From Sphaerolaimus hirsutus (lineage: Eukaryota; Nematoda; Chromadorea; Monhysterida; Sphaerolaimidae), in contig OZ038454.1 in the NCBI GenBank assembly GCA_964036195.1, positions 23,732,315 through 23,796,314 on the forward strand: 64,000 nt of DNA, read 5' to 3'. The position numbers and the translations under genes are program-made. The notes under the pieces were generated by a model, which saw nothing but the letters and a program-made list of their open reading frames with translations, searched no databases and was not told the DNA's origin. Numbering within the stretch: the first letter of the stretch is position 1; each line of letters starts with the position of its first letter. Of this stretch, positions 11,927-41,200 are shown one piece after another.

Positions 11927-14900
11927 TTAAAACTTATACAACTCAAAGTATGTCTCCCGTGCGCCAATTCCTTTTGCACTATTCACTACACTTGGGGGCA
12001 CATGCTTCCTCATTGGCTGTATTTTGGCTCTGTTCCAAAATTTGCCATTGCACCCAACAACTAAATTGTACAAAGTTGCACGAAGCACAGTGTGGGTCCT
12101 GATTAAAACTGCCTGGGGCCAATTCCAAAAGTTGTCAATTTTTAAGAAAAGTGAGAAGTGATTGAGGGAAATTGTAAGTGGTAAAGCAAATGAAAAATAT
12201 ATTTTACCTTTCACTTTTTCACCCAGGTATAACTTTATCTTCACTATTACCTATAACTACCTATAACTCTTACCTATAACTTTTCTTATTACTTATCAGA
12301 TTTCTTATCACTTGACCAATTTTGGAATTAGCTGACACCTGGGGCCAGTTCCGCAAGTAGACAAGTTAAGAGTTAAAAGTTAAGAGTTGAGTTAAAGGTT
12401 AAAAGTTGAGTCAAAAGTTGAGTTAAAAGTTAAGAGTTGAGTTAAAGGTTAAAAGTTGAGTCAAAAGTTGAGTTAAAAGTTAAGAGTTGAGTTAAAGGTT
12501 AAAAGTTGAGTCAAAAGTTGAGTTAAATGTTAAGAGTTGAGTTAAAGGTTAAAAGATGAGTTAAAAGTTGATTTAAAAGACAAATGGGTCATTCGTTGCA
12601 GAAGCGCGATACGCTGATCTTCAATCATATTTTGTCCCTGCACGGCCATTTCGAAACAACGTTCGGCGATTTTTTCTTTTTTTTGTGATAATTTTTTTGG
12701 ATACGTTATTTTCAAATGACGTGCATACAACATTGGCACCATGCCAGCGAACAGCCGTATCGATACCAATTTCATATTTTTATTTTTTATATTGTTTTAC
12801 CTTCATTTTCCACTTGTCTCTTAACTCTTAACTCAACTCTTAACTCAACTTTTAACTCTTAACTCAACTTTTAACCTTTAACTCAACTCTTAACCTTTAA
12901 CTCAACTTTTAACTTTTCTCTTAAATTTTAACTTTTCTCTTAAACTTTAACTTTTCTCTTAAATTTTAACTTTACTCTTAACTCGCCATTTGTCTTTTTA
13001 CTCAACTCTTAACTTTTAACTCTTAACTTGTCCACTTGCGGAACCGGCACCTGGGCCACTATCATGTTACCAGTTGACAAAAAATTCCCAATGGTATATG
13101 CCACTCCTTTCATGAATTCATCTGTAATCTGCATGTACACTCCATAGGAAATTATACCAGCTACTGTTAGTATAGAATGTGATGCTATCAACATCAAAAG
13201 TGCCCTGGAAAGTTTTTTAGGATGAATAAGTGCTTACGCATGCTGATGCTATAAAATCATTCTTTCTGGAAACTGGAGACAGTAGAAAGTGTTTTTGAAT
13301 AAAATGACATCATTTCATACAATGCCAGCTTCCAGACTCAGTCAGTTTACAGTGTGATGCTACTACAGGCTCACATCACATGAATGTGTCTTTACCTTCA
13401 AAGATTTTCTTGTTGCAAATATGTGTATGTATTTAGAAGGTGAAAAACGGACATATACTCGGCGAACCGCAAAGTATGTAGGGTTCAAACGATATGACTT
13501 TTCGATATCGATATTCGATATTCGATATTTTTTCAAAATTTTCGATATCGATATTCGATATTTTTTTCTGAAACTCGATATTCGATATCGATACGATATG
13601 GAACCTCGATATCGATATTCGATATTCGATATTGAAAAATGGTCGATATTTGATATTTGATATTTCGATATTTTCGATATTCGATATTGCGATATGCTTT
13701 TGGTATAGCAAGGCATATTTCAAGTGGCATATTGTATTTTCATGTGGTTGCACACATGTTTAATCATCTCTTTACTGAAATGTGAATGGTACAAGTGATT
13801 TTAACAAGCTTTACATCACTCAATGGTAGAAAATAGAAGAAAAACATGATGAATCAAAGTGTATCAGACAAATAACAATTGGTAGATATTACAGTTCATC
13901 CTTATAACCTAATTGCTTAAGGGCATGTTGCAAAAAAAAGTATATCAGCGTTTTCTGGCTTTAAATTCAGCACTCCAACAACAATGACATTATAAATACT
14001 GTACTTTTACTCATCAAATACAATAATATAAGCACATCAGATCAACCATAAACATCTCAAAATGAAAAGTACGTTTGGGGACACAATACAGGTTCGATAT
14101 ATCGAAAAAATGGTCGATATTCGATATTTTTTCAAAATTTTTGATATCGATATTCGATTTTCGATATTTTTTCAAAATTTTCGATATCGATATTCGATAT
14201 TCGATATTAAAAAATGGTCGATATTCGATACGATATATCGTTTGAACCCTAAAAGTATGCACCCAAAGTTATTTATGTTTTGATCGATAACGCGCGAGCT
14301 GGATACTCATGTATGCACTTTCTCAAAAAGAAAAAATTTTTTTTTAAAGAAAGAGGCAGAGTCGCGGGCTATTTACACAGGTCCCGGCCGGACCCGGCAA
14401 AAAATAATTTTTTTCAAAAATGAATAATTGGCGTGTATGGGTTGTTTGCATGTTAATTAGGTGAATTATCACCAAATTAGCATGCACAAAATTTTTGCGA
14501 GACGGTGACATGCGCTGATGCAAATTTTTTTTGGGGGGTGTATAGTTTTTTTCGATCTGTCTGAATTTTGGCATGTGTGTACTCCTTCATTTACTGAGTA
14601 CACATGCCAAATTTCAGCTCAGCACCATTAACGTTTATCATTTTATTCACACTTTAATTTTTTTCGATCACTGTATTTTTGTATAGTGATCGAAATTCTG
14701 CTGGGGTCCAATCCCCGGCAACATTGAAAGTCAAACGTCCCAGGTGAGAAATTTTTTTTTTCAGTAAACAAAGAATTTTGGTCCCCGACTGTGCATGCTA
14801 ATTTGGTGATAATTCACCTAATTAACATGCAAACAACCCATACATGCCAATTATTCATTTTTGAAAAAAATTATTCTTTGCCGGGTCCAGGTCCCCGGCC

Positions 14901-17900
14901 AGGACCTGTGTAAATAGCCGGAGTCGCGTACAAACAGGGAATGTTTTTTCCCGTCATGTTTTTACTTTTTTGCTGGAATTACTGTTATTTTATTATTGAT
15001 GACGTCATGATGGAGTGTTTCCTTCAGAAAAATGCATAGCATGCGGTCCGCCGAGTATACCAAAAAATTTATATTCATCCTTTTTTAAGATGATAACTTT
15101 TGGAAATGGGTAAATAGTGAATTTCCACATTTTGGAGCATAAAAACATGTAACCTAGTCGTGCCCAAGCTCCTTTTCACAGCTATCCGGATGTGCAGCGG
15201 TTGTGGCTGTCTGCCAAAATCATCCCAAAATATGTGATTTGCCCTCTGCGTGTATAGGTAGCACAAGAGCGAGACCAGAAACGAAATTTAATTGGCCTGC
15301 TTTTTAGGCCAGCCAGATTCATTGTGATGAAATGTGCATTTCCAACATTGAAAAATAGCACTGTTAAGCTGATTAAGCTGTTAAGCACAGCTCTTTTTTC
15401 GTTATGCTGAAATTTGGACTTATGTCGCGGTTATTTGCTGTCCGGTTTAGTCTGTTTTGGCAGCCAGGGGCACTCCCAGATAGGGTTCAAAAGGGATCCC
15501 GATCCCGATCCCGGATCCCGTGAAATTCCGGGATTTAGCAGTCCCGATCCCGAAACCCCAATCCCGATCCCGATCCCAAAATCCCGAAATCCAAAAATAC
15601 CAATCCCGATCCCGATCCCGATCCCGAAAACTTTAAAATCCCGATCCCGATCCCGAGAATCTCCCAAGTCCGGGATCCCGATCCCGGAAAAAAATAGTGG
15701 AAATTATAAACAGTGAAAAAATGACATTTTTGCGTGCAAAAATGTGAACGCAAACCCCCAGCGTCCATTTTATGTCACTTTTCTGGCATCCAACAGTGTT
15801 TTGAGACCTTTATGAACAACTGTGAATGCCAGAACAGTGACGAAAATCTCTATCCCTAGACCCCAATCCCGATCCCGAAAAAATGCCAATCTCGATCCCG
15901 ATCCCGTGACTCCAATCCCGGCCAATCCCGATCCCGATCCCGAAATCTCAAAATACCAATCCCGATCCCGATCCCGAAACTCCAATCCCGATCCCGATCC
16001 CGATCCCAAAATCTCAAAAAGTGAATCCCGATCCCGATCCCGAAAAGTCAATCCCGTTTGAACCCTACTCCCAGACCCAGTAAAAGACCCTGTCAAGTGC
16101 AAAGTTTTTGTAAAGTGTGATATATCATGTAAAAGACCCTGTAAAATGTCATATGTCATGTAAAAGACCCTGTAAAATGTCATGTGTCAGGTAAAACACC
16201 CTGTAAAGTATCATATGTATCCAAATCTTATTGTATCATATCCAAATCTTACCTTTTTGTATACAAATATTATGTCTAAAAGAAAGATTTGGAGTCAAAA
16301 ACACAAGATTTGGATACACATGACACATTACAGGGTCTTTTACATGACATTTGACACTTTACAAGGTCTTTTACATGACACATGACATTTTACAGGGTCT
16401 TTTACACTTTACAGGGTCTTTTACAGGGTCTAGGAGTGGCACCAGCCACCAGGGCGCCACCGCTTCAAACATAATGTCAGAAAGAATACAACGAATCGCG
16501 CTGTCCAAAAAAACGCATCGAGCCAATTAAATTTCGCACCAGGGATACGAGCAGCACAAAACAAGTTGACGCCGCGTCAACTGCCGCGCTGCCAGTGATT
16601 TCATTATACACGCACAGCGGCATTAATTGATCAGCCTTTGACTTGTGCGGCTCAATGAAGCCATATGCTATGGGTTTGTGACTAACTGCCGCCCACCCCA
16701 GTATCCACGGTGTTGCTGAAATGGTGACATCATGTACCGTAAATGCTCTATTTTCTCAGCTCGCCAGACTAGGGATGGCTGGTATTTGTACGCGGCGGAC
16801 ATCACACTTAGTATGAAAACCTACCATAACCCACCTGAACAGAGAACCAAAAATTATAAAGTTTTTTCATCATAATATTTCGTTTTTTACTTTGAAATAA
16901 TTAATTACGAAATTAATCACAAGATTCTATTCATTAAATTATGGTAGGTTTTCATACTAGGTGTGCTGTCCGCCGAGTATACTTTTTCCTACTTTTTACA
17001 ATTTTTATTATTATTTCAAAATGCAAGCATCGAAACCATTTTTCGTACTTATGCGCTGTGTATTTTGCAATTTTGGCGCGCAAGTGGGCAATTTCCGTGC
17101 AAATTACTATTTGTGGTTGTTTACTTTGTTTTTATGTCATTTTCAATGTAAAAGGTTCCACACATTTACTTCCACAGTAATTAGGCCAATATATAGCCAA
17201 TGTGCTCCCACATTCTTCCACACAGTGTGAAACAGCATTCTCAATGTATTAGCCGTTTATCATAACTTTGGTTAAGCAGTATTCCTTCCTCAATTTAATT
17301 GCAATCACAAATTTCTTTTGTCATTCATATCTTCAACAGAAGGTGACATACATAATGAGTCAAGATAAAGATGGATTTTTGGGGGAGAAATCACCACTTA
17401 AATTGCTATCCTATGGCTCCACAGCTATTGTATGGCTATATGTGAATAATATCACAAAGTACTGCCACTTGTCTGATATACCTGTATATGTTAACCAATA
17501 ACCACCTAGAAGCTTCAAAAAAGTTTTTTAAAATGTTTTTAAAGGGCTCATTAAAAACGTTTTTTTTCATCCTCCCTCACACCTCTAGGTATTTGGAGGG
17601 GGGTATATTTAAATGGTGTGTTAACTGTAAACTACTCACCCACAGCTGCTACATTTACAAGAATATGATTTTGCAAAGAACCCTTCATGTGGTGCTTAAA
17701 AAAACTATTGTATCCTTGAAATTTGTGCAGTTTGCGTACTCGCCACATTTGTTCCATTGCCAAAGTTGCAACTATGAATATAGTCGTGTTGTATTGCGCT
17801 GGGGGTGTCTGAGTTGTCACTTATGTATCTGATCTATCTAAGACTACCTGACGGAAGGTGTCTCTTCCTAAAGTTTAGAAATAGTTATCTAATTTTTAGA

Positions 17901-19573
17901 AGTTTATATTGTTTCCAAAATTATTCCAAAATCCAAGTGAAAATTCTGAATGTGTGCTGTAAGTATACATTTTACCTGATCCATTAATTAAATAATCAAT
18001 TAAAGACTCAGAAATCATAAAAACGAACAGATTGGAAAAATTTTACACTTGAAAATGTAGGCATTTTTATACTAAAAAATGTAAAAAGAGAATATTCATC
18101 CATTTTTAAAACAACCCTATTGCTTCCTATAGAATGTCGCATGTAGCGATTTTTCAAAGTATACCTAATTCACCTATTACAATGATCAAAACAGATAAAA
18201 TTCACTGTTTGTTCCCTGGTATATTTATACCTATTTAGTCCTAATATTCGGTCATTATCTATTTCACAGATACATTTAGTGACAATTTATATACCATATA
18301 CAACCAGACGCAGGTCAAACGTGTCATCTGGAAAAAAATTACAGTTTGAAAATACACTTTGGTCATGATGAAGAAAACCAACTGAACGCAACTGAATGCA
18401 ACAAGCGCCAAAAGAATCGTGAATTTTCCCACGCGTTTCACACACTACAAGTGATGGCAGGTTGCCAGAAAAAGGGCGCCAGGTGCCAATGGCACTACCT
18501 GGGCCGTATCCAGGGGGGGGGGGGCTGCAGGGTTTTTCTTGTTCACAATGCTTCCATTATTCAATGCATCATGCAGATATTTTTGCTCCATTAGATTTCT
18601 TCTAGATAGCGATGTATAGAGTACCAAAGCTTTGGCGCCAAGCGCTAATGGCGCTACAGCAAAATGGCGCCAAGCGCCAAAACCACTATGGAGCCCTTAA
18701 CTTTATCGCTAGCGCCAGCCAGGTGCTTTTGTTCATGGCGCCACCGAAAACTAGCACCAAGCGCCAAAAGCGCCATGGCGCTTTTTGCTTTGGCGTAATC
18801 GCCGTGGCGCCACCGCCAGCACCTTTTACATCACTACTAGTATATCTATAAAGAAGAAAAAATACATACCGTATTTCCTCGAATTACCCCCCTCGAAATA
18901 CCCCCCCCCCCCTCGAAATACCCCCCTCAAAATGGGCACTATGAATTAATAAACCCCCCTCGAAATACCCCCCCCCCCCAAATTGAGTGTAAAATGACAA
19001 AAGGTACGTTTTGTGATCTGGCAATGCATAACACACGTTAAAAAGAATGACTGTGTTACGTTAGAACATGGTTTATACCATCTACATACTTATTTAAGTC
19101 TGTAGGCTCTTATACATGGTGGTTTTTGTCACATTTTTCTATCTCTGCGTACGTTATTAGTACTTGGAGTTCAAACGATTTCTGGCGGAATAATTAACCC
19201 CCCTCGAATTACCCCCCCCCCCCCCCAAAATGCTAACCCCAAAATCCGCTATGCCAAGGTTCCCCCTAAGGTTGTCATTTGTCAGTAATCTCACCACTAG
19301 TAAACAGGGGTCCTTGAGAACATATCTCTTGATGATGTCATCTAGAAGAAGAGTGAGATAACCCAATGCCCATACAATATTGGCCAGTGCCATGTTGGCA
19401 AATTGCCATCTTTCGAGATTATCCAGTAGATTTGTCCACATTGTTGTCAACAGAAGTGCAATGTTCACCAGAATGGCAATGGATGATAGAATTGCAGTGC
19501 CGAAAACTTGAATGTCGTGTGTGTCAAGACTTGTTAGATGTAGGGTGGTGTTGCACAAGTTTGAATAAGCCAT
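11927..19573 (-). CDS. Receptor gene A: divergent rhodopsin-like 7TM receptor, 7 exons
   Basis: My splice model has exons at 19295-19573, 18295-18327 (33-nt microexon), 17640-17808, 16540-16715, 15154-15275, 13051-13204 and 11927-12112, giving 372 aa with all phases compatible. Predicted helices lie near residues 20-46, 57-80, 99-125, 152-171, 206-229, 261-286 and 293-318. Cys99 at the start of helix 3 lies exactly 24 residues before Glu123-Gln124-Met125, which replaces the DRY motif. Cys195 in the second extracellular loop could pair with Cys99. A Pro-Trp pair marks helix 4, and the NPxxY motif is not recognisable. These traits fit a class A or chemoreceptor-like GPCR in the plasma membrane; the ligand is unknown. 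Most splice sites are GT-AG, but intron 4/5 looks non-canonical. Paralogue B (24753-34420) confirms every exon. Changes in exon 5 are almost all synonymous, which supports real coding. The family name is inference. Confidence 0.8.
12117..12337 (-). mobile_element. Introner-type MITE (CCAATTCCAAAAG family) in intron 6/7 of gene A
   Basis: GGCCAATTCCAAAAGTTGTC at the left is the inverse of the right end (TTTTGGAATTAGCTGACA). CCTGG copies bracket it at 12112-12116 and 12338-12342. In gene orientation its right-hand AG is the acceptor of exon 7. The same element is the entire exon 6/7 intron in paralogue B. Confidence 0.85.
12365..12560. repeat. Tandem array, about 50-bp unit
   Basis: Nearly four head-to-tail copies of a unit built from AGTTAAGAGTTGAGTTAAAG and AGTCAAAAGTTG. 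This is the left arm of the introner-type element, mirrored by a diverged inverted array at about 12815-13030. Confidence 0.8.
12542..12775 (-). other. Unique open frame in the core of an introner-type element
   Basis: A 77-codon minus-strand frame starts at a real ATG. Up to about codon 68 it reads through non-repetitive sequence (charged, helix-like, e.g. KKEKIAERCFEMAVQ) before entering the tandem arm. The sibling element at 7048-7493 lacks this core. It could be a captured host exon or the relic of a transposon protein. I do not recognise the family. Confidence 0.35.
13489..14251. mobile_element. hAT-like MITE with CGATATT arrays
   Basis: TAGGGTTCAAACGATAT and ATATCGTTTGAACCCTA ends are flanked by exact octamers AAAGTATG (13481-13488 and 14252-14259). 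Both arms are dense (TTCGATATCGATA)n arrays (about 13500-13690 and 14095-14240). The centre is AT-rich and non-coding. Confidence 0.9.
14367..14920. mobile_element. Foldback MITE, GGCTATTTACACAGG termini
   Basis: GGCTATTTACACAGGTCC and GGACCTGTGTAAATAGCC are long inverted arms. A 7-8-bp duplication (GAGTCGCG at 14359-14366 and 14921-14928) flanks it, with one base ambiguous. The arms also share GCATGTTAATTAGGTGAAT in inverted copies. It is non-coding. Confidence 0.82.
15464..16446. mobile_element. CAGACCCTGTAAA-family MITE split by a hAT-like element
   Basis: CCAGGGGCACTCCCAGACCC at the left and AGGAGTGGCACCAG at the right. The arms are TGTAAAATGTCATGTGTCA repeats. The core at about 16215-16315 is a palindrome of GTATCCAAATCTTA motifs. 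It has inserted in intron 4/5 of gene A, and paralogue B has a counterpart at the same place (25816-26563). Confidence 0.75.
15481..16067. mobile_element. hAT-like MITE with GATCCC arrays
   Basis: TAGGGTTCAAAAGGGATCCC and GGGATTGACTTTTCGG-type arms end in TTTGAACCCTA. Exact octamers CTCCCAGA flank it (15473-15480 and 16068-16075). The interior is (CCCGAT)n, so the ORFs rich in Asp-Pro or Gly-Ser-Arg are spurious. It is inserted within the CAGACCCTG element. Confidence 0.9.
16787..16982. mobile_element. TATACTCGGCGGAC MITE, short subfamily
   Basis: GCGGCGGACATCACACTTAG at the left is inverted as TAGGTGTGCTGTCCGCCGAG at the right, and the interior is nearly palindromic (TTATGGTAGGTTTTCATA). 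The same subfamily occurs at 19702-19913 and 35116-35309. It lies in intron 3/4 of gene A. Confidence 0.75.
18449..18838. mobile_element. Decayed GGCGCC-array element
   Basis: The right end ACATCACTA and scattered GGCGCC/AGCGCC motifs match the GGCGCC-array family, but the left end is poorly preserved and no 8-bp duplication is visible. A fragment of the GTATCCAGGGGGG family lies at about 18505-18540. It is located upstream of the 33-nt exon in intron 1/2 of gene A. Confidence 0.5.
18867..19230. mobile_element. TACCGTATTTCCTCG MITE, right end lost
   Basis: It begins TACCGTATTTCCTCGAATTA and continues with CCCCCCTCGAAATA arms, but the mirrored right terminus is missing. It sits in intron 1/2 of gene A, ending about 65 bases from the donor of exon 1. 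Confidence 0.65.
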
Positions 19574-24741: not shown

Positions 24742-24942
24742 GTCAACAGCAATTAAAACTTATACAAATCAAAGTATATCTCCCGTGCGCCAATTCCTTT
24801 TGCACTATTCACCACGCTCGGAGCCACGTGCTTCTTGATCGGTTGTATTCTGGCTCCGTTCCAAAATTTGCAATTGCACCCGACAACTAAATTGTACAAA
24901 GTTGCGCGAAGCACAGTGTGGCTCCTGATTAAAACCGCCTGG

Positions 24943-25572: not shown

Positions 25573-25815
25573 GTTGGCTATAGCATTGAAAACGCCTTTT
25601 ACCTGGTGGTTTCCAAACTCCTTTTCACAGCTATCCGGATGTGCAGCGGCTGCGGCTGCCTGCCGAAGTCATCCCAAAATATGTGATTTGCCCTCTGTGT
25701 GTATAGGTAGCACAAGAGCGAAACCGGGAACGAAATTTAATTGGCCTGCTTTTTAGGCCAGCCAGATTCATTGTGATTATGTGAATCAGTTAATTTTTGG
25801 TGGGTATTTTTGGCT

Positions 25816-26563
25816 GCCTGGTGCCACACCCAGACCTTGTAGAAGACCCTGTAAAATGTCATGTGCCATGTAAAATGTCATGTGTCATGTAAAAGAGCCT
25901 GTCAACTGTATCCAAATCTGGTTTTGTCATATCCAAATGTTATGTTTTAGTATCAAATTATGTCAAAAACTAAGATTTGGACACAAAAAAACAAGATTTG
26001 GATACGTGAAAATAATATTTGGATACACATGACACTCTACAGGGTCTTTTCCATGACATTTTACAGGTTACATGGGGGCAGTCCCAAGCCCTGTAAAGTG
26101 TAATATAAAGTATCAAAGTTAAAGTCAAATGCAAAATCAAATGTCAAAAGTAAAGTAAAGTGTCAAATGTAAAGTCAAATGCAAAGTCAAATGTCAAATG
26201 TAAAGTAAAGTGTCAAGTGTGTATCCAAAAAAAATTTCATATCCAAATCTTATGTTTTTGTATCCAAATCTTATCTTTCGAAATTCGATTTGGATACAAA
26301 AACATAAGATTTGGATACGAAAAAGTAAGATTTGGATACATAATTGCCACTTTACTTTGCATTTGACTTTATATTTGACACTTCACTTTACATTTGACAT
26401 TTGACTTTGCATTTGACTTTCCATTTGACACTTAACTTTACACTTTACAGAGCTTGAGATTCCCACATGGTCTTTTACATGATACATGACATTTAACAGG
26501 GTCTTTTACATGACACATGACATTTAACAGGGTCTTTCATAGAGTCTGGGAGTGGCACCAGGG
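25816..26563. mobile_element. CAGACCCTGTAAA-family MITE containing a second copy of its own family
   Basis: CCTGGTGCCACACCCAGACC at the left and GGGAGTGGCACCAGG at the right. It carries TATCCAAATC palindromes and a later copy of the same family at 26076-26465. It occupies the same intron position as 15464-16446 in gene A. Confidence 0.78.
26076..26465. mobile_element. Nested GGGCAGTCCCAAGCC MITE
   Basis: GGGCAGTCCCAAGCCCTG and CAGAGCTTGAGATTCCCA are inverted ends, between exact CATGG copies (26071-26075 and 26466-26470). The arms repeat AATGTAAAGTCAAATGCA and the core is a TATCCAAATCTTATG palindrome. Confidence 0.82.
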
Positions 26564-26919
26564 CAGCCCCGCCCTGAACACAATGTCAGACAATTTTACA
26601 ACGAATCGGGCTGTCTAAAAAATGCATCGAGCCAATTAAATCTCGCACCAGGGATACGAGCAGCACAAAACAAGTTGACGCTGTGTCAACTGACGCGCTG
26701 CCAATCACTTCACCATACACGCACAGTGGGATCAAGTCATTAGCCCTGGACTTGTGCGGCTCACTGAAGTTATATGCTATGGGTCTGTGGCTAACTGCCA
26801 CCCACCCCAATATCCACGGGGCTGCTGAAATGGGGGAAAAATGGGAAATGGGGAATTTACATGGTTAGGAAATTAATGTTATTTAATCGTATGTTACTAC
26901 TTTTGGTGCTTTCCCATTC

Positions 26920-27346: not shown

Positions 27347-27696
27347 CTGTAGTCACCAGTTTTTCACAAGTCACAAGTAGGTAAAAAATTGCACTTACCA
27401 ACTGTTGCCAAATTTACAACACTGTGACTTTGCACCGATGACTCCCTCATGTGGTGCTTGAAAAAACTGTTGTATTTATCCTTGAAATTTGTGCAGTTTG
27501 TGTACATGCCACATTTGTTCCATTGCCAAAGTTGCAACTATGAATATAGTCGTGTTGTACTGGGCTGGCGTTGTCTGGGTTTGTCACTAATTGTATCTGC
27601 AGGAGTCTTGAGAGAAAGAAACTCTATTTTAAATATTTTTAATAAAGCCTTTTTTGCACATGACACCTCCCCCGGAATATAACATGTGGCACATGG

Positions 27697-27852
27697 TGCC
27701 AATCCCAGACCCAGTAAAAAGCCCTGTAAAATGTCAAATTTCATGCAAAGTGTTGAAAGTCATGGAAAATGCTATGCAAAATGGCAACCGAGTTTCCATT
27801 TTGCAGGGCATTTTCCAGGACTTTTGACATTTTACAGGGTCTGGGACTGCCT
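27697..27852. mobile_element. CAGACCCTG-family MITE in intron 2/3 of gene B
   Basis: TGCCAATCCCAGACCCAG and GGGTCTGGGACTGCCT ends between exact CATGG copies (27692-27696 and 27853-27857). At 156 bp it is one of the smallest copies. Confidence 0.8.
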
Positions 27853-28353
27853 CATGGTGCCATAATAGAAAAGCTCCCACTGGTACCCACAGTGTTTGGT
27901 GTTTTCTTTGAATCTGTCAGAAAAGCTTTCAGTGTACCATTGTATCGCAATAATCACATCTAATTATCAGTAACATAAGTATCAGCTATAGTCATTAAAG
28001 ATTATATTTTGACTTTGGGCATATGCACAAATACATTTAGTGACAAAATGTAGATACCGTATACAGCCAAGCACAGGTCAAACGTTTCATCTGAAATTTT
28101 GTTACACAATATTTTTTTCTGAAATTTTCAGACAATATCAAAATACATAAATAAATCTCAGATTGTTCTGTTGTCTCACCACAAGGCTACAGGGTTCTTT
28201 CAGGACATATCTCTTTAAAATATCATCAACAGGAATATAGCAATTGACTATTGCTGACACAATACTGGCCAGTGCCAGGTTGGCAAATTGCCATCTGTCA
28301 AGATTGTCCAGTAACTTTGCCCGCAATGTTGTCAACAGAAGTGAAGCATTCAC

Positions 28354-28575
28354 CTGGGGGCAGTCCAAAGCCGTGAAATGTGTAAAGTAAAGTGTCAAAT
28401 GTCATGAAAAATGTTAGCAAGTAAAACAAAAAAACATAGATTTTATTACTGAACTTTGCATGACAATTGACAAGACACCATACTTTACATTTTTCATGAC
28501 AATTGACACTTTGCATGACATTTTAAGTGACATTTGTCACTTTACTTTACACTTCACAGGGTCTGGGATTGGCAC
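28354..28575 (-). mobile_element. Introner: intron present in gene B but absent from gene A
   Basis: The 222-bp intron runs GTGCCAATCCCAGACCC... to ...GGACTGCCCCCAG in gene orientation. Its ends are the inverted termini of the CAGACCCTGTAAA MITE family and its arms are TGTAAAGTAAAGTG repeats. Gene A reads straight through the site (ATT CTG GTG AAC at the equivalent codons, near 19466-19471), while gene B reads ATT CTG | intron | GTG AAT. Removal is exact to the base. Confidence 0.9.
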
Positions 28576-28825
28576 CAGAATGGAAATGAAGTTTAGAATT
28601 GTAGTGCCGATAACTTGAATGTCGTGTGTGTCCAGATTGGTTAGGTGTATTGTGATTCAATTCAATTAGGTTTACTTGACTCAGACCTCAAAAGCCAAAT
28701 GCAAGTAAAATACACAATTCATACCCATCGAGTACTCCTATTTTGCGGTCCTAATAGGTGAGTTTGTGCGCTTTGTATACACAGAAGGTGTGGGAGAATA
28801 TAGAGAAAACACCTAGTCTACTTAC

Positions 28826-29486
28826 TAGGGTGTCAAAAAAAATTTTTTACGGAAAACGGAAACGGAAACGGAAAATTTTTTTCAGCGGCCGGAAAACGGA
28901 ACGGAAAACGGAAAAAAATTTGCACTTGGCGGAAAACGGAAACGGAAACGGAAAAAAAATTTCAGCGGCCGGAAAACGGAAAAAGAGGCCGGAAAAACGG
29001 AAACGGAAAAATCAAATTTGCACAGAAATGGAAAAACTTGCTGAAATTTTGCCGGAAAATGGATAAAATTTGCTGAAATTTTGCTGGTAGTGGAAAAAAT
29101 TTGCAGTAATTTTGCTGGAAACAGAAATTTTTTTACATCATTGATAATCTGCATGAATTTTTACCAGTTTGGCTGATCAGAAAACAGAAAGTTGAGCCAG
29201 AAAAAGGTAAAATGAGGCGGAAAAATGGAAAATTGAAGCGGAAAACGGAAAAAAGGCGGAAAAACTGGAAATTGAGGCGGAAAACGGAAAAAAGGCGGAA
29301 AAACTGAAAATTTAGCCGGAAAACGGAAACTGAGCCGGAAAAACGGAAACGGAAAAAAAAGTTGCCGGAAAACGGAACGGAAAACGGAAAAAAAATTTCA
29401 GCAGCCGGAAAACGGAACGGAAAACGGAAAAAATTTGCCTGCGGAAAACGGAAACGGAAAACGGAAAACGGAAATTTGACACCCTA
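28826..29486. mobile_element. hAT-like MITE packed with GGAAAACGG arrays
   Basis: TAGGGTGTCAAA and TTTGACACCCTA ends lie between exact octamers CTACTTAC (28818-28825 and 29487-29494). Both arms are dense in AAACGG and GGAAAACGGAAACGG. AAACGG is also the known subterminal binding motif of maize Ac transposase, a striking but possibly coincidental match. It is inserted in the LINE 3' region, so it is younger than the LINE. Confidence 0.9.
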
Positions 29487-29896
29487 CTACTTACTACCTT
29501 ACTAAAAAGTGGGCGGCAGACAACATTGCCAGGAACACCGAAAAACAAAACACTCTAGCACCCCACGACCCGGGTTTGTCCGCGTTTAAAAACAATTTGC
29601 AACATTTGAACAAAAACGTGCATAAAAGAGTAAAGTGAAAATCAACATTCTGATGTTAAGTGAAAATCATAATCAAAGTCGCCGTTAGAAAATCCCCTTT
29701 GTCAAAGAAAATCATGATCTTTCCGAAGCGTTTTCCGCTTGCTATTCCATGAGTTTTTCCAACTTTTTTCCAAGTTTTGACATTATTGAAAACAGGTTTG
29801 CTGTGTTTTTGGTTGTAAACCACTTTGCAAAATGATACAGTTTTGTACAGTGTAGGTATACATGGATCTTCTTTGCATCCAAGGTCAGCTTACTGC

Positions 29897-32800
29897 TTAA
29901 CCGGGGATCCCGCTCGCGAACGATGTACCGTCGCTGCGTTCCCCCCAGTTTTCCAGTACTCTGGCCAGATTACCCAGGTGTTGCGACGCATCAATACGCA
30001 TTTTATGACATACTGCGGCATCAAAGACTGTGCACGGAATCTGTCTCGCAATGCTATGGCTAATTTGTCGCGTCACTAATGCTGTCTCCGCCTCGGATGT
30101 GGCAATGTCTTTGCCGCACCGTCGGCTGCAACAGTCTTCACTAATCGACTTAGCCCACTCTGCGCGCCAGAGTGTCACCGTCGGATGTTGACACTGTCCC
30201 AGGTAATGAGACAATGTCATCCAAAATGACCACCCCAGCGATTCACATAACGGACAGTTTCTCCATTGTCTTATATTGTTTTGCCTAAACTCCCATCCGT
30301 AGTGTTTACAGGCCGTTAGAACTTTATCCTTCCCAAGTGTTTGCGTGTTTCCCAGGTTCATCTCAAATTTTGCCGTTTTTGCCCGCCCCTCCGGTGAGTT
30401 TTTTCGTGTTGCACCTGCTGATCCTTTTTGCTCCCCCCATATTTTCGCTGCTAATTTGGTCGTTTTTGAGGCTTTTTCAGATTTCAGGTAGTCATTGTAT
30501 CTAATTATGCTGTATTTATACCAGCATTCCATTGTCCTAATATTCCAGTCTATTCCCAACAGTTTGTTTGACATGTGTTTTCCTACATTCCCCACTTGTC
30601 GATAGAGTCCCATCTGTGACGACGTCATTTGTTTTAGCGTAGATTTTGAGAGTCCCGTTATCTCGACGCCATACATCACTGTGCTGGCCACATACGCCCC
30701 CCAGAGCATATTTAGCGCCCATATCTGTCTTCGGCTGTGTTTTGTGACTTCTTTTGCAAGGAATTTCCCTTTTGTTAGCTTATCCATATATCCGCTTTTC
30801 TGTTTTTGAAATGGATCACGACCACTGCACAGAATGATGCCCAGGTATTTGGTCTCGTCACATTCTCTTATGATTTGCTTATTTCCATCTGCCCCTATCC
30901 CCAGATACCACTCTCTGTTTGCATCCGCACTCCTTCTGAAATGTAGGATCATGCTTTTTTGTTCACTGATCCCGACCCCCCATTCGTGACTCCACTCTGT
31001 GAAAATGTCCATTATCTTCTGCAGATCCACGTCGTTATTTGCCATGAGAACCACGTCATCCACAAAGAACCCTGCTGGTATTCTCTCGTGTCCTAATTTG
31101 GCACCAAGTCCGCTTCTTTCCAGTTTTGTTCTTAGGTCGGCCATATACAGCACATATAGTGTTGGACTTAGGCAGCAGCCCTGCCGCACCCCTAGCGGGT
31201 AGTCAAGTTCATCCGTGCAAACTTCGTTGTATTGCAAATAGCATTTTTGATCCGTGTAGGTGCTTTCTATTGCCTTGCACAGATTTTTGCCATATCCGTA
31301 GTCTCTTAGCTTCACCCAGAGGCGCCCTCTGTCAACCCTGTCAAATGCTTTCACTGCATCCACAAAACATGCTGACAGTCGATTTGTTTCCGCCAGGCAT
31401 CCCTGTAGTATCACATGGTTGTCTGTTGTTCTCCTGTTTGCCCTGAATCCTGCTTGCATATCACCAAAGGCATTGTTGTATTCAAAACCGTCCATCAGTC
31501 GTTTGTTTATGATTGATCAGTACAGCTTTAGGATATTACATTGTATCCCAACTGTTCTGTAGTTATTCACGTCTGATTTTGAGCCCTTTTTATGTAGCAG
31601 GACCAGTTTGCACGTTTGCGCGCGGCTTGGTATTTTTTCCTGGCCACTAAACCACCGGTTCATTTGATTTTTCAGCGCTACAAGTAGGTTCGGTCCAGGC
31701 ATCCTCAGCATCTCGTGCGATATCCCTGTCGTGCCAGCCGATTTTCCCAGCTTTAGTCGCCTGCAAGCTTCTAGTGTTTCCGCTGTCAAAATTTCCGCGT
31801 CCAATTTGTCAGCCAGGGCCTTGTCGATAATTCCTATCATTCCACTGTCGGTTCTGAAATTCGCTTTTGCTGGATTCGGTGCTTGTATTCTCTTCCAAAA
31901 TTCGTTTAGAACTTGTTTCAGTTCCGTGTCATCTTTGCATGGTCTATTTCCGATTTTGAGCATTGGGTACTTTACATCAGCCTCTCTTAGTTTCTGGGCC
32001 ATCTTGTACAGATTAGTGTTCTCGATTCCGTACTGAAGCTCATTTTCCATTATTCGCTCTAGTTTGTCGTCATGTGCGGATATTTCTTGCTGTCTGATTT
32101 CTCCTAGTCCCCTTTTTCGGTATTCTCGGTATTCTATTATACCAAGTCTACCTTCATGCAAAGCTCGTCTTTTTTGCTTAAGCATTCTTTTGATCTCTCG
32201 TATCTTCTTGCCATACTTTGTTTCTTTCCCTTTCCGCTGTTTTCCCCCAAACCAGCACTTCGCCCATTGCTGTAAAAAGACAAGCAGGGCGTCATAACTG
32301 GATGGGGGACACGTCGGAGTGATGACGTTTTCGATCTCCTTCAAAAATTTTGTGGATTTCCCCTTTCCTCTAATTGACCACCCTCTAGAGGTTGGCACCG
32401 TCTTTTCCTCTGTTTCTCCCCCTGACTCCACAGAAATCTCCACTAAAAGTCCGCTGTGATCAGACATTATGGGGCTATTTCTGTGTCCTAGGTTTTTGAT
32501 CATTGCCGTAGCCATGTCCGCTTGATTGTCCATTAAACAGTGATCAATTCTCGTCTTTGTGTGTCCCGATTCGAAAGTCCACCACTGCCCTATTTTGTCG
32601 TCCAAGACTACCATGTCCATTGCAGAAATCCATCCTTTGAGAAGCCTCCCGTTACGGTTTGGTGTGACAGTACAACGACCCACCCCAAAATGCTCTTGTC
32701 CTAACGCCCCGTTGAAATCACCGATTACGATTGTATCCCTCCCAGAACTGCGGTTACATATAATCCTATTTCCTATTGTTTCCAAAATTTGCGAGTTGAC

Positions 32801-34391
32801 ATCCCTTAATTCTCTGTCTCTTTGTATCCGCCCTTGGTCCAGAAGGTAGACAGCAACAATGTCAAGTTTTCCTGCCAGAGTGGAAATTGTCATTGCCACC
32901 GTATTGCTCTCTGTATCCCCTGTTGTAATTGAACCTTGCATATATGCAGAAACTGATTTCTTTATATACACAAGAAAGCCACCGTTGTTGGATTGTGGCT
33001 TTCGTATCAAGGTTAGGTTGTAATCCGGTGACTCCACAGTGTCCAGGCGTGTTCTCACATTTGCTTCCCCTAGGATGGCCACATCGCAGCGTCCATCTGC
33101 TAACATGTCTGCAATTTGCTCGTGCTTTTTCCGTGCAGATCTCACATTTTGAAAGAATAGTGTCAGTTTGTTCCCCCATCTCACTCCCCGTTTCAGTTTA
33201 TCCCTATCGGTTCCTTTGGTTCCCCCTAATTTTGGTTCAGGTTTTTGTTTTTTCAGTATCCCAGTGATTCTACCAATTTCATGTTGTTTTCGCGTAACCC
33301 TTCTACCATCGTGATTTGCACCTCCATCTTGTGGATTTCTGGTGCTACCACTCTGGTCTGTTGCGATTGACATGTAATGCGTACGGCAGTGGTGTGTCTC
33401 GATGTTGCGCTTGTGTCGTTTACTTTTGTCCCGATTTTTACCCAAGCGTTTTTTGCGACATAGCCATCTACCCAGCAACCATAGCATTGTGAGACAGTTT
33501 CCTATTGCATGCAAAAATGTATCACAAAATCTAGAAATACGCCGCTTTACTGCAACTTCCCATTTTCTGCCTACTTCCCTCAGCCTCCCACGCACTCCAA
33601 ATCCGCATCTGCATAGGGATAGCGCGTTTGTATTACCGCGTACGAGATATCCTAGATTGAGCCTACTCACTTTTGCCTCTCGGTCATTTGTTTGTAAGCC
33701 TATCAATGTTGAGGACATCCATATACACGTACCAGTTCCGGCTAGAAGAGCTAGCGCCGAGATTCGTCGAAATGGCGGCCGCGCCCGCTGCCCAGGCCTC
33801 GATACCGCGCGAACTCTCCGCGACCGTAGCCACCTCGACCATGTGCCTGGCCGAAACCGCCGCGATTTTCTCCATAGCTGCGTTACGTGCATGAAATGGT
33901 TGAAGTAGTTGAGTGTTTGCAATTTCCCCAACCAGCCTACATCTCCCCTGATATAGCCCATAAGAAACCCGCCCTTTTGCCACCAAAGGGCAAGAGCAGG
34001 ATTCATCTGGGCCATATCAAGTGTAATATTTGGACATATTCGTTTAGACTTTGGTATCACACACCTAAAAACAGTCCATATGCATAGTAGACTTGCTAAA
34101 AGGGTTCCCCATCTGCCACCTCCAAATTGTGAACCGTTGCTCAATAGTGCATGAATTTGAGCTTTCAAGGTTACTATCCATCCATTGCCTGTGGTTCTAA
34201 GTCTTTTCGCTCGTTTTTCCCCTACTTCAACCGTACACCGCGGAAGTTTCCAAAGCGCTCGCTCACCCACCTTACTTTTCCTCGCGCTTCTGTCGCCGTT
34301 CGTTCCGTTCGCCAGATATCTCTTCCTCGCGTGCGCGTGCTTCCACCGTGAAACTTGCCCGGCGCTCGATTTTAAAATTTCGATTTTATTC
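29897..34391 (-). pseudogene. LINE copy 1 polyprotein, interrupted by one in-frame TGA
   Basis: An apurinic-type endonuclease (QNVRSARKK, GEANV, GDFNGALG, SDHSGL) is followed by reverse transcriptase (FRANRRTTDNH, VDAVKAFDRVDR, GVRQGCCLSP, FFVDDVVLMAN) and a C-terminal zinc knuckle (CPLCESLGWSFW...HYLGQC). The frame is open from 34391 down to 31520, stops at TGA 31517-31519 where copy 2 has a Cys codon, then stays open to 29897. It also lacks, in frame, about forty residues that copy 2 has between the RT and the knuckle. Because the upstream ATG of gene B is in frame, the first ten codons of the apparent ORF belong to the receptor and not to the LINE. Confidence 0.88.
33684..33986 (-). other. 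Conserved alternative-frame block in LINE copy 1
   Basis: In a frame different from the long ORF, this strand reads MVEVATVAESSRGIEAWAAG and then LGASSSSRNWYV. The matching block of copy 2 (39122-39319) reads VEVRTDAENFPNIEAWAAG and LGASSSSQQHWYV. Several codons differ only at silent positions (for example TCT TCT AGC against TCG TCG TCA), so this frame was probably translated, perhaps as the end of ORF1. Confidence 0.5.
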
Positions 34392-34552
34392 GTGATGTTG
34401 CACAATTTCGTGTCCATCATATTTATCTAGTTGTGTCCTGTTCCTTGAGTTGCTATTCACGTTCTTTGTGCACATGGATTTTCATGTGCATTAGAGATCT
34501 GGCAAATGACACGTATTGACCAATTAGCAAGCAAGAACTCATTTGATATTGT

Positions 34553-36947: not shown

Positions 36948-38213
36948 ATAATTTCCTGGTATTTTTCTACGTCTAACTATGCCTATGCCTAGTGCCTATG
37001 CCTAACTCTAGAAAATTTGTTTTCCAAAAAAAAATTCAGAAACATTTCTTCTTTTTTTTCGCGAAAGTGCATGCATAAGTATCCCGCTCGCGCGTTATCG
37101 ATCGAGACATACCTAAGTAATTTTTACGCCTACTTTGCTATCCGTCGAGTATATCAGTAAGACACTCCAGTTTAAAACATTTTAATCGTTGTTGCGGTAA
37201 TTGCAATCACCTGGGTAACCATTTTCAAACGGAAATTGTCTTGTTTGATTGCTTGTGATATTCTCATTCAAATATGAAAATAACATTTTTCACATTGCAA
37301 ATTTTTGAGAAAATGTGAGTTTTGGACATGAATGTTTAATAAAACGCGTGAAAACAAATTTTTTTGTTGATATCCTGTAAATCCACCTTACGACTCTCTT
37401 TGTGTATTAAACAAACATCCACAACGTACAAAATTCTGACCACCGTTTTTTTAAATGGATATGGAATTGAATGGAATGAAGTGCTTGAAGTGACACTGGA
37501 AATGAAGCGTTGGTTCCGTAACTCGATAAACGCCAAAGTGAAACAAATTGAGTTAAGTGCATATTTATCTGATATATATATATATATATATACATATACT
37601 TTTTTCTTCAAAATAAATAAAAAATTACGTAAATATCTCATACCGTTCCCGAGATACAGAGACACCGATTTTTGCAAAAAATGTAAATTTTCATCCGAAA
37701 CTCGAATGTCCGAAGCCACCGGCTTGCAAACTCTTTTTGAGGTACGAAGAGTGTCAATCGGTGTCCGCCGAGAAACATAAGAGAGACACAAAAAGGAAAA
37801 AGGAAAAAGGTGAGTTTCCCCCAAGGAGCGAAATTGTCGGATTGCGGTCGAATTAGGTCTCGCTTGCGGTCTGTGCACTTCCCCATTTTAGGGGCTGCAT
37901 AGAAGCAAGTGTTGAGGAGAAGGAAGGAAGGGCGGGAGCTGTCAAGCACTGCAAACAGGACGCTTTATTGTTCCTGGAAGAGTGCCAAAAAACAGCAGCG
38001 ACAAAGCACAGATTTGACCCAGGGGCCTGGGTCGAACGTCAGCGTTCGTAAGGTGTCTTTAAACTACCTGAACGAACTGCGGACGAGTGCTCAAAACGTA
38101 AGAGGAAGTCAAATCGGACAAAAAACAGCAGAACAAAAGCCTACATCTGCAAAGCTGGGAACCCTAGTCACGGAATTATCAAGTGCACAGGCGGTCGGTT
38201 ACAGCTATCACCT
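36948..38213. other. Upstream flank of LINE copy 2
   Basis: It contains a decayed TATACTCGG fragment (about 37070-37153), a TA microsatellite (37573-37592) and AT-rich sequence. The exact 5' end of LINE copy 2 is not resolved and may lie inside this stretch, after about 37900. Confidence 0.4.
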
Positions 38214-41200
38214 ATGGGGACAAACGTAACTATTTTGATAGTTACGTATGTAGGCGTGTACAATTTGTACACGCCTACATTCGCTGGCAACGGGCCAGTG
38301 ATTGGCAACGTTCCAAACGCTGTCGACGTGCCAAAATCAATAAAAATCTTCGCAGAGGCATTCGAGAGCGACGGAAATCGGCAAAACATCCGAAAACGCG
38401 CGATCGGCGAACGCGGCGGGGGAAAACGCGGCGGCGCATCAGAAAATGCGGTCAGTTATCGCGAAAGTTTGATGTTTCCGCAAATCCGGAGTAAAAATAT
38501 GACGGATGTGCAAAACGCAGGCAGTGAATGGACAGCAGTCTGGATAGCTATGATTTGGCGCGCGATCAAGCCCTACTGCTACCAAGTGCCTCGGGAGTGT
38601 GCAGCGGTCAACCGGGAGGGAAATCGCCGTCTGAAGGAGAAGAAGCGGCTCTTTTGGCAGAGAGCCAAAACGCGGAGACGCCGGCGGTCGCGAGCAGAAC
38701 CCGACGCCGATCGAAGGGTCAGGAGGTGCGGCGGGACCCGAAACAAAAGGGATGCACAGGGAACAAGTTGGATCAGGTCAAGGGGGGAGTTCGTTTTTTG
38801 GGGAGTTTTTTGGAGCGTGGAAAGGGTGTTCGGTGCGGGAAGCGAAAAGGGGGCGGAGTTAAGATGGTGGAGTGGGGCCGGAAACGAATGGGTAGCGGGA
38901 TGTGGAGCCATATTTGTAGGATTGTGCTTATTACTGCGGGGATTGAAAAATGGAGTATTGACTATAGATGCTACTCTTCGCCGATGGCTTCCCGCCCTTG
39001 CCCTTTCGTGGCAAAAGGGCAGGAGACCACTGGCGAATACTACATTAAGAGATATACTACGTAGGATTTCTGAGAACAATCACCATTCATCACAGTTACG
39101 GCGGCGGGAACCAGCAGGGAGGTGGTTGAGGTGCGTACCGACGCGGAGAATTTTCCCAATATCGAGGCGTGGGCGGCGGGCGCGGCCACCCATACGGCAA
39201 CTCTCGGCGCTAGCTCGTCGTCACAGCAACACTGGTATGTTGTTAGGACTGCTTGCGTTAGGGGGAATTTGGATATTTCAACAACACTTTGCAAAACCTC
39301 AAAAAACGCATGGATCTGAATGGGATTGGACAAAAATAGGATATCTGCTAAGGGGTAATTACTATGTAATTTCACTGTGCAGAGTGGCTATCGGGCGGAG
39401 TGCGGAAATGCGTGTGACATGGAGTAGGCGGTTGACAAAAGTGAGGCGGCAACTCTCATCTGGCGTTTGTGATACTATGGAATGGATAGGGGTATGTCTC
39501 TCAATATTATGGGTGATATGGAAAAGGGCACTTTACACACACTGCGGTAGGTCCCGGAAAAAACCATATTCTGAGACAAACAATGTCAACAATATTGACG
39601 AGTCACACCAACTAATAACACATAGCACAGACACGGTAGGGATACAATCAGGTGAGGACACCTCTGCTCGCGGTCCAAGAACTAAAAAACAAAAAACTAT
39701 ATGTAGGATAACGGGGATCCTAAGGAAGAAAAAACCGGAGGTGAAGATAGGTAACGACAACAAAGAACGGAAAAACAAAAAGGGGGTGACCTGGGGAAAT
39801 CAACTGAAACTGATCTACCAAAACGTGAGATCGGCGCGTAATAAACACGAACAAATTCAAGAATTGTTAAGGAGTGAACGCTATGATGTTGTCATTTTGG
39901 GAGAAGCTAATGTAAGAACACGACTTGAGACTACGGAGACGGCAGGGTATGATCTCACACTCATACCCAAACCGGAAAACAATAACGGGGGATTCCTTGT
40001 ATATATAAAGAGATCTATCTCGGCATACATGCAGGGATCAATCACGGAGGGGGGCTTAGAGAGTAATACAGTCTCAATGACAATTTCAACACTTGCAGGG
40101 AAAGTGGATATCGTAGGACTGTATTTACTAGATCAAGGAAGGCTGCAAAGAGACAAAGAGCAGAAGGAATCAAATGCAAAAATTCTGGAGGCACTATCAG
40201 AGCAAATAACAGGCAATCGAAGCTCGGGTAGAGATACCATTGTGATTGGTGATTTCAATGCGTCGCTAGGACCGGATCTACTAGGAAGAGGTAGGTGTAG
40301 TGAGACTGTTAACAGCACGGGGAGATTAGTAAAAGGATGGCTGGGTGCAACAGACATGTCGGTTTTGGATGATGCAAATGGACAATGGTGGACCTTTGAG
40401 TCAGGCAGGACGAAAACAAGGATCGACTACTGTATGATCGATAATCAGGCGACGACTGTGTATGCAAAGATGAAAAATCTTGGACATGGAGGAAGCCCCT
40501 TGACATCGGATCACAGTGCACTGGACATCAACATCATGATAGAATCGGGCGGAGGTGGATTAAGGGAGAATCAAAGGCAATCACCAAGGTGGTCGGTCAG
40601 AGGGAAAGACAAATCGACAAAATTCCTATCAGAAATCGAGAAAATCCTGGAACAAAAAACAGCTCCGGACAACTACTCTGCCCTGCTTGATTTTTTGCAG
40701 CAAGGGGCGGAGCAGTGGTTCGGAGTGAGGCAAGGGGACATGAAAGAGTCGAAGCACATCAAACAGATAAGAGAAACAAAGCGGATTCTGACCAGGAAAC
40801 GCAGAGCACTGCACGAGGGGAGAATAGGGTTGACGGAGTACAGAACTGCACGGAAAGCTGGACTGCAGAATATAAGGCAGATCGAACGATCTGCGAGAGA
40901 AGAAAAAAAGGACAGGGTATTAGAGAATGAGCTAAAATACGGAATTGAACACACAAATCTGTATAAGCTGGCAGCAAAGCTACGTGACTCGGACGTCAAA
41001 TATCCAATGCTCAAGAACGGGTCAAGAGTGTGCAAGGACGATGAGGAACTGAAACAAGTGCTTGTGGAATTCTGGCAACGAATACAGTCTCCAAACATAG
41101 AGAAATCCGACTTTGACACAGATCACGGGATGAAGGGTGTGATAGATAGAAATCTATCCGAACGAATGGACAGGGAAATATCACAGCAAGAGACATTGGA

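Follow-up and report, generated by a model that had tools for sequence, protein, structure and literature searches.

A 222-bp segment with GT and AG at its ends lies inside exon 1 of gene B, one of two duplicated genes in the 64,000-nucleotide stretch of DNA analyzed here (the window, on contig C6 of a 348 Mb invertebrate genome in 762 contigs). Its presence raises the question of whether a transposon has become an intron at this site and, if so, whether gene B gained it or its relative, gene A, lost it. The insert belongs to a very abundant family of non-autonomous DNA transposons (MITEs), and we consider it probable that it acts as an introner, with predicted splicing. The MITE inserts at CWG and duplicates those 3 bases. 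According to the introner model, its left terminus, GTGCC, would supply the 5′ splice site; a target duplicate that reads CAG would supply the 3′ splice site directly after the CCCC end of the element; and splicing would take out the element together with one duplicate, so that the original coding sequence is restored. In gene B, the element entered ATT CTG/GTG after the duplication that produced A and B, and a T-to-A change in the 3′ copy, which was presumably selected, would have turned CTG into CAG and thereby made the acceptor canonical.

The gene B insert and its empty counterparts

Reading both genes on the minus strand confirmed the filled and empty sites described by the sequence-only reading. 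From 28575 down to 28354, the insert of gene B runs from GTGCCAATCCCAGACCC ... to ... GGACTGCCCCCAG, preceded by TTC ATT TCC ATT CTG and followed by GTG AAT GCT, whereas gene A, ~9 kb from gene B, reads ATT CTG GTG AAC unbroken. The two genes are colinear duplicates, with 55 of 86 residues identical around the insert (gene A 19522-19265) and three matching pairs of later exons beyond exon 1 (Table 1). The insert consists of a 219-bp element plus a 3-bp target-site duplication and, despite a length that is a multiple of 3, contains three in-frame stops. Its acceptor-side CAG differs by one base from the CTG of the left flank, and given this mismatch one base has probably changed in the target-site copies of gene B. 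The description of both intron ends as inverted MITE termini held for the 5′ end, where the left terminus carries the GT, and had to be amended for the 3′ end, where the CAG sits in the position of the target-site duplication. Folded from the native sequence alone, the RNA of the insert plus 15 bases on either side was predicted to form a single long hairpin (-77.5 kcal/mol) in which the two ends come together.

Table 1. Positions in the window of the gene B insert, a second complete MITE copy, and the compared parts of genes A and B.
Feature	Position	Strand	Remarks
MITE insertion with GT...AG ends, inside gene B exon 1	28354..28575	-	element 28357-28575 plus 3-bp 3′ duplication 28354-28356
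GT, candidate 5′ splice site	28574..28575	-	on left terminus GTGCCAATCCCAGACCC
CAG, candidate 3′ splice site	28354..28356	-	at position of CWG target-site duplication
CTG, left target-site copy	28576..28578	-	last codon ahead of junction
Further complete MITE copy, between gene B exons	27696..27856	+	ATG/ATG flanks
Gene B exon 1, upstream part	28576..28629	-	ATG missing; stop in frame farther upstream
Gene B exon 1, downstream part	28180..28353	-	end set at GTGAGA donor by reading
Gene B region around exon 2	27393..27599	-	4-bp insertion near 27479, frame shifted vs gene A
Gene B exon	26679..26831	-	open, homologous to paralogues; pairs with gene A 16570-16722
Gene B exon	25602..25724	-	39/40 compared residues same as gene A; dN/dS ~0.03; pairs with gene A 15153-15278
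Gene B last exon	24756..24935	-	open; pairs with gene A 11930-12109
Gene A exon 1	19295..19573	-	ATG present; end set at GTGAGA donor by reading; holds empty site
Gene A region around exon 2	17634..17831	-	
Gene A exon	16570..16722	-	
Gene A exon	15153..15278	-	
Gene A last exon	11930..12109	-	

A protein search of the genome returned 17 places for the A/B exon. All 16 places besides gene B (gene A included, and L015 in its upstream piece) are uninterrupted at the codon of the insert, a count to be read with the fact that some of the 17 places form near-identical pairs, one on a small and one on a large contig, so that independent genes are fewer. Because these 16 places are unbroken at that codon, we read the site in gene B as derived and the insert as a gain that followed the A/B duplication, in agreement with the original proposal. 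An ancestral intron that was cleanly lost from gene A is extremely improbable: 15 further paralogue places join gene A in being uninterrupted at the insert codon, the intron itself belongs to a mobile family of high copy number, and we found no point that supports such a history. Exact loss from gene A was rejected on the strength of the paralogues.

Six insertions of the same MITE family were verified in the A/B paralogues (B, L015, L007, L009, L010, and L011). The insertion in L015 is independent and lies at another codon than that of gene B. L007 is filled at DHQ/EVAG and L009 at REL/VTMC, each being continuous at the site of the other, and L006 is also continuous at the site of L007; L010 is filled at TL/VSIAIEKL, where L012 is empty, and L011 and L012 are filled at EKL/VCTYY, where L010 is empty. 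Presence of the element is thus derived at sites that are empty in relatives in the A/B, L007/L009, and L010/L012 pairs. Given these independent insertions, a chance GT...AG insert in gene B is unlikely.

Three further paralogues of gene A (L013, L016, and L017) have the exon broken ~200 bases in by other inserts with GGGTGTCC... and ...GGACACC at their borders; these inserts look like a second, unrelated inverted-repeat element in a coding exon. Separately, a 116 kb contig (G000:C508) matches a chromosome region, G000:C14 near 19.69 Mb, at about 95-99% in the compared stretches and is probably the other haplotype of that region. The COX1 gene of this genome, on a contig of 14.75 kb, follows the invertebrate mitochondrial code (AGA for Ser, ATA for Met, TGA for Trp), and its matches were headed by seven unnamed sequences at 66-89%, with named insects next at about 65-67%. 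For a fragment of BCKDHA, the top hit by E-value was to a nematode (53%), followed by a springtail (65% over 71% of the query).

Gene B itself is probably a pseudogene now, because exon 1 has lost its start codon (its reading frame contains no ATG and, at the place just upstream where gene A has its ATG, meets a stop) and exon 2 carries a frameshift; splicing in gene B may therefore matter no longer. The other compared exons of gene B are open, and the view of it as a working gene on those grounds was dropped in light of these two lesions. Between A and B, dN/dS is 0.40 overall (226 codons) and 0.03 in one exon (40 codons), and the differences in one A/B exon number 0, 1, and 10 by codon position, i.e., nearly all fall at third positions. 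Because the ratio is 0.40 overall but 0.03 in one exon, gene B probably died recently; it probably worked for some time after the duplication and may have been alive when the insert was gained.

Among the peptides tried, the membrane-protein-like A/B family gave no Pfam match above cut-off, and the term receptor-like for it reflects only an impression. Adjoining gene B exon 1 is a low-complexity tract of CGGAAAACGGAAAC-type repeats (window 28830-29490), and a similar tract seems to be present in L110. Long ORFs at window 29897-34426 (-) and 38052-43241 (+) give the impression of two copies of one endonuclease/reverse-transcriptase retroelement, with the minus-strand copy split across two ORFs.

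Copy number, termini, and target sites of the MITE family

Eleven TIR-like ends were found in the window at ≤2 substitutions from CAGTCCCAGACCCTG, where ~0.1 would be expected by chance (by arithmetic). The statement that the family occurs at least nine times in the window is accurate for ends; complete copies correspond to some pairs of ends, e.g., 27696-27856. Nested or tandem copies around palindromic GTATCCAAATCTTATG-type sequence were also seen at window 25815-26560, between gene B exons. In the whole genome, the 23-base left end had 13,394 matches (6720 + 6674) at ≤2 mismatches and the reversed control had 0. The sequence-only reading of the insert as a transposon copy with intron-like ends is supported. 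An apparent same-strand run among the left-end matches listed was set aside, the strands being mixed among the matches listed for the exact-end counts described below.

We examined target sites and termini in a non-random sample of 107 loci, chosen by exact left-end match on contig C1 (51), by likeness to the gene B element (39), or by paralogy (17). The 150 distinct element calls comprised 82 left-right (81 without one nested copy), 48 right-left, 7 left-left, and 13 unclear calls; the 48 right-left calls were mostly the same copies seen on the other strand, and all calls but the 81 were dropped before the counts. Flanking 3-mers were identical on the left and right in 40 of the 81 canonical copies, whereas 2000 shuffles averaged 22.6 and never exceeded 33; of these 40 copies, 39 had CAG or CTG. 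By target class, the 81 copies were CAG-CAG (21), CTG-CTG (18), CTG-CAG (11), CAG-CTG (1), and other (30). Because the flanking 3-mers are identical beyond shuffled expectation and are mostly CAG or CTG, we conclude that the MITE duplicates a CWG target.

The first base of the left end is G in 98% and the second base T in 100% of the 81 aligned copies, frequencies that are partly built in because many copies were chosen by left-end match. The left end, GTGCCA(A/G)TCCCAGACCCTGTAAA, and the right end, read inward as GGGGCAGTCCCAGACCCTGTAAA, mismatch at the second and fourth bases, and it is the mismatch at the second base that makes the GT. Comparison with NuwaI, of the PIF/Harbinger-related PHIS superfamily, is instructive here: in the passages of its description drawn on for this comparison (PMC4482050), NuwaI has 5′-CWG-3′ target-site duplications and animal hosts, and its TIRs usually start with GGG. 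The right end of our MITE, GGGGCAGTCCC, is alike; the left end, GTGCCAGTCCC, starts with GTG rather than GGG, unlike NuwaI, and thereby creates the GT. Because CWG duplications and GGG ends mark NuwaI transposons, we take GGGG to be the ancestral state of the terminus, and NuwaI-like (PIF/Harbinger-related) MITEs are the likely parent group. In those same passages, NuwaI elements are nowhere presented as introns.

DDE_Tnp_4 (PF13359), a PIF/Harbinger-type transposase domain, had at least 163 matches in the genome (150 of 306 candidates scored), many of them near-identical (e.g., L110-L112). Most of the matches listed contain a ~190-base interruption with four TGA, which is probably an intron. 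In the comparison with NuwaI, no transposase copy with the TIR of the family came to light among three loci examined, the MITE TIR being absent within ~1.5 kb of these three DDE_Tnp_4 copies.

Insertions in coding exons elsewhere

The MITE family has made the same kind of insertion in many other genes, including ones that look functional. We verified 18 insertions in coding exons, 17 sense and 1 antisense (binomial p 0.00014), with the near-identical pairs L007/L008 and L011/L012 counted once each; the sense insertions lie in coding exons that are conserved or paralogous, at 17 positions distributed over 14 genes. Several coding-looking copies were left out of the verified set (L008, which is TAG-CAG, L032, L033, L043, and L082), as were the antisense ORFs of L057 and L074, whose Pfam support is partial or weak. 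The strand bias would weaken if either of these two codes across its junction; the GDT1 match of L057 lies wholly downstream, starting 26 residues past the junction with none across it, and the Pfam matches of L074 were all below cut-off.

With the element cut away at its ends, an open coding sequence runs across the junction in 17/17 sense insertions, and each of these copies, if kept, would truncate or shift the protein through in-frame stops or a frame shift. Pfam was run on 60 out of the 168 junction ORFs and on 2 extra peptides (62 in all). Domains crossed the junction in 11 cases, of which 10 are sense and 1 is antisense: Na/K-ATPase (two), COPA/B, OSCP1 (two), DUF229, CHGN (two), a permease, and BCKDHA (two). 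Regions with such insertions include C1:9553100-9555100 (Na/K-ATPase), C1:3591760-3594782 (OSCP1), C1:5419581-5422603 (CHGN), and C1:8336650-8338150 (BCKDHA). The first 30 junction ORFs had been picked by eye, and the second 30, from both strands, gave nothing. In an LRR protein, the 26-residue repeat period continues through the junction (by reading), and its Pfam stretches do not span the junction. The profile matches at the second OSCP1 and first BCKDHA junctions are of equal length (39 to 39 and 81 to 81), and an eight-sequence BCKDHA alignment is gapless at both junctions, with a one-residue insertion a few residues before the second. The sense copy in BCKDHA has one C missing ahead of its CTG. 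The antisense copy (L088 289-483) begins, in gene sense, with GGGACAG and ends with GGCACCAG, so that no GT stands at the exon border; its exact removal would still restore the BCKDHA protein, and it is possible that it represents a dead or polymorphic allele.

The 17 sense copies fall into the target classes CAG-CAG (6), CTG-CAG (4), and CTG-CTG (7), with GT-AG ends in 10/17 and GT-TG ends in 7/17. GT-AG ends are usual, though not universal, in the coding copies of introners. By the usual consensus GTGCCA is a weak donor, which counts against the introner model, as do the seven TG-ending copies, the antisense L088 copy with no GT at its border, and the apparent death of gene B, which has lost its start and is frameshifted. 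The last three points would fit ordinary MITE insertions, some in exons by chance, with fortuitous GT/AG ends and with host genes that are pseudogenes or insertions that are young, unspliced, and harmful. We regard this explanation as unlikely; the 17:1 strand bias in coding sequence, the conserved domains that flank both sides in Na/K-ATPase, COPA/B, OSCP1, CHGN, and BCKDHA, and the 11-to-1 excess of CTG-CAG over CAG-CTG copies all argue against it.

The element could also be an intron with a different 5′ border. An internal donor, CCT/GTAAAA, lies 18 bases inside each terminus, where its use would keep the frame and add six codons per insertion; because of this second donor, the exact 5′ splice site is a candidate. 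None of the three frames meets a stop in the first 18 bases, and 18 is divisible by 3 (by reading); the donor is present in both orientations and would also cover the antisense BCKDHA copy, and added codons are on record for Aureococcus introners in the corresponding part of the introner survey (PMC9860276). Set against this, six extra residues would land in conserved motifs, such as MTNYGEEG of BCKDHA, and the internal donor is of no help for the CTG-CTG copies, in which use of the acceptor upstream, TTTACAG, would put the sequence out of frame (by count). We give splicing from the internal donor a low probability. The transposon-as-intron reading is right in kind, and gene B lends it less support than the other family members do. 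What we observed is the gene B insertion with its derived status and, for the family, the terminal sequences, the duplication of CWG, the way copies fit into other genes, and their bias in strand; the splicing of copies is predicted from these sequence features.

Acceptor ends and relation to known introners

A faithfully copied CTG target should leave CTG at the right end as well. Mutation alone should affect the two target copies symmetrically, yet CTG-CAG copies exceed CAG-CTG copies (11 vs 1, p 0.006), and for this reason AG at the 3′ border appears to be under selection. Exact counts over the whole genome pointed the same way, with CAG at 883 of 1493 right ends (CTG 610) and at 744 of 1390 left ends (CTG 646; p 0.003), the left-end counts being those of the GTGCCAG variant only. 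An end-specific transposition mechanism is a possible source of the CAG/CTG asymmetry.

Introners are the closest known kind for this family. In the portions of the survey by Gozashti et al. (2022; PMC9860276) considered here, introners are the best current explanation of bursts of intron gain, and a search of 835 genomes from animals and land plants found them in just two groups, both of them animal, with copepods named; few animal groups have thus been reported. The introners described there are, as our family would be, repeated elements whose insertion into exons gives rise to introns, with TSDs and TIRs, in which the element carries the 5′ splice site and the 3′ site is co-opted from the duplicated target (Fig. 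2C legend of that survey). Here, too, many similar copies lie at differing exon positions, and their similarity extends up to both predicted splice borders (81 copies aligned). The present case differs in its host, an invertebrate, and in its CWG target duplication, and the words Harbinger and PIF are absent from the main text of the survey. A limited literature search for a link between introners and Harbinger elements yielded a single listing, a fungal intron survey.

Several systems bear on the non-canonical ends. The Micromonas introners IE-B and IE-D, as presented in the relevant passages of PMC3879977, have GT...TG ends, as do the CTG-CTG copies here; they differ in belonging to a green alga, in having 25 and 6 members, and in a spread that was read there as likely reverse splicing. 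Amoebophrya introners, in the sections of PMC7789003 that describe their borders, share 3-5 nt direct repeats at exon borders, inverted repeats capable of forming hairpins, and non-canonical ends; they differ in their dinoflagellate host, in very variable splice dinucleotides, in having no family-specific inverted repeat, and in being supported by RNA-seq, where our case is built from sequence. TG as an alternative 3′ splice site of human U2 introns (PMC2374985, in the part used here) is an animal precedent for TG acceptors; the human TG is an alternative site, whereas the CTG-CTG copies here are without AG at that border. Because GT-TG introners in Micromonas and TG acceptors in human genes are on record, GT-TG splicing of the CTG-ending copies is possible.

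These observations can be joined in a scenario that we offer tentatively and hold to be well short of probable. A change of one terminus only, from GGGG to GTGC, would have made a NuwaI-like MITE an introner; since CWG sites read either CAG or CTG, about half of its new introns would begin as GT-TG and be spliced as such by the host, and a T-to-A change in the duplication would convert them to GT-AG, the gene B copy being a matured one. If this is true, the genome would preserve frozen stages in the maturation of the 3′ splice site, CTG-CTG and then CTG-CAG, alongside CAG-CAG. A family with thousands of copies, empty paralogue sites, and ends of both the AG and the TG type within a single genome would make the steps from transposon to working intron, including acquisition of the 3′ splice site, directly traceable.
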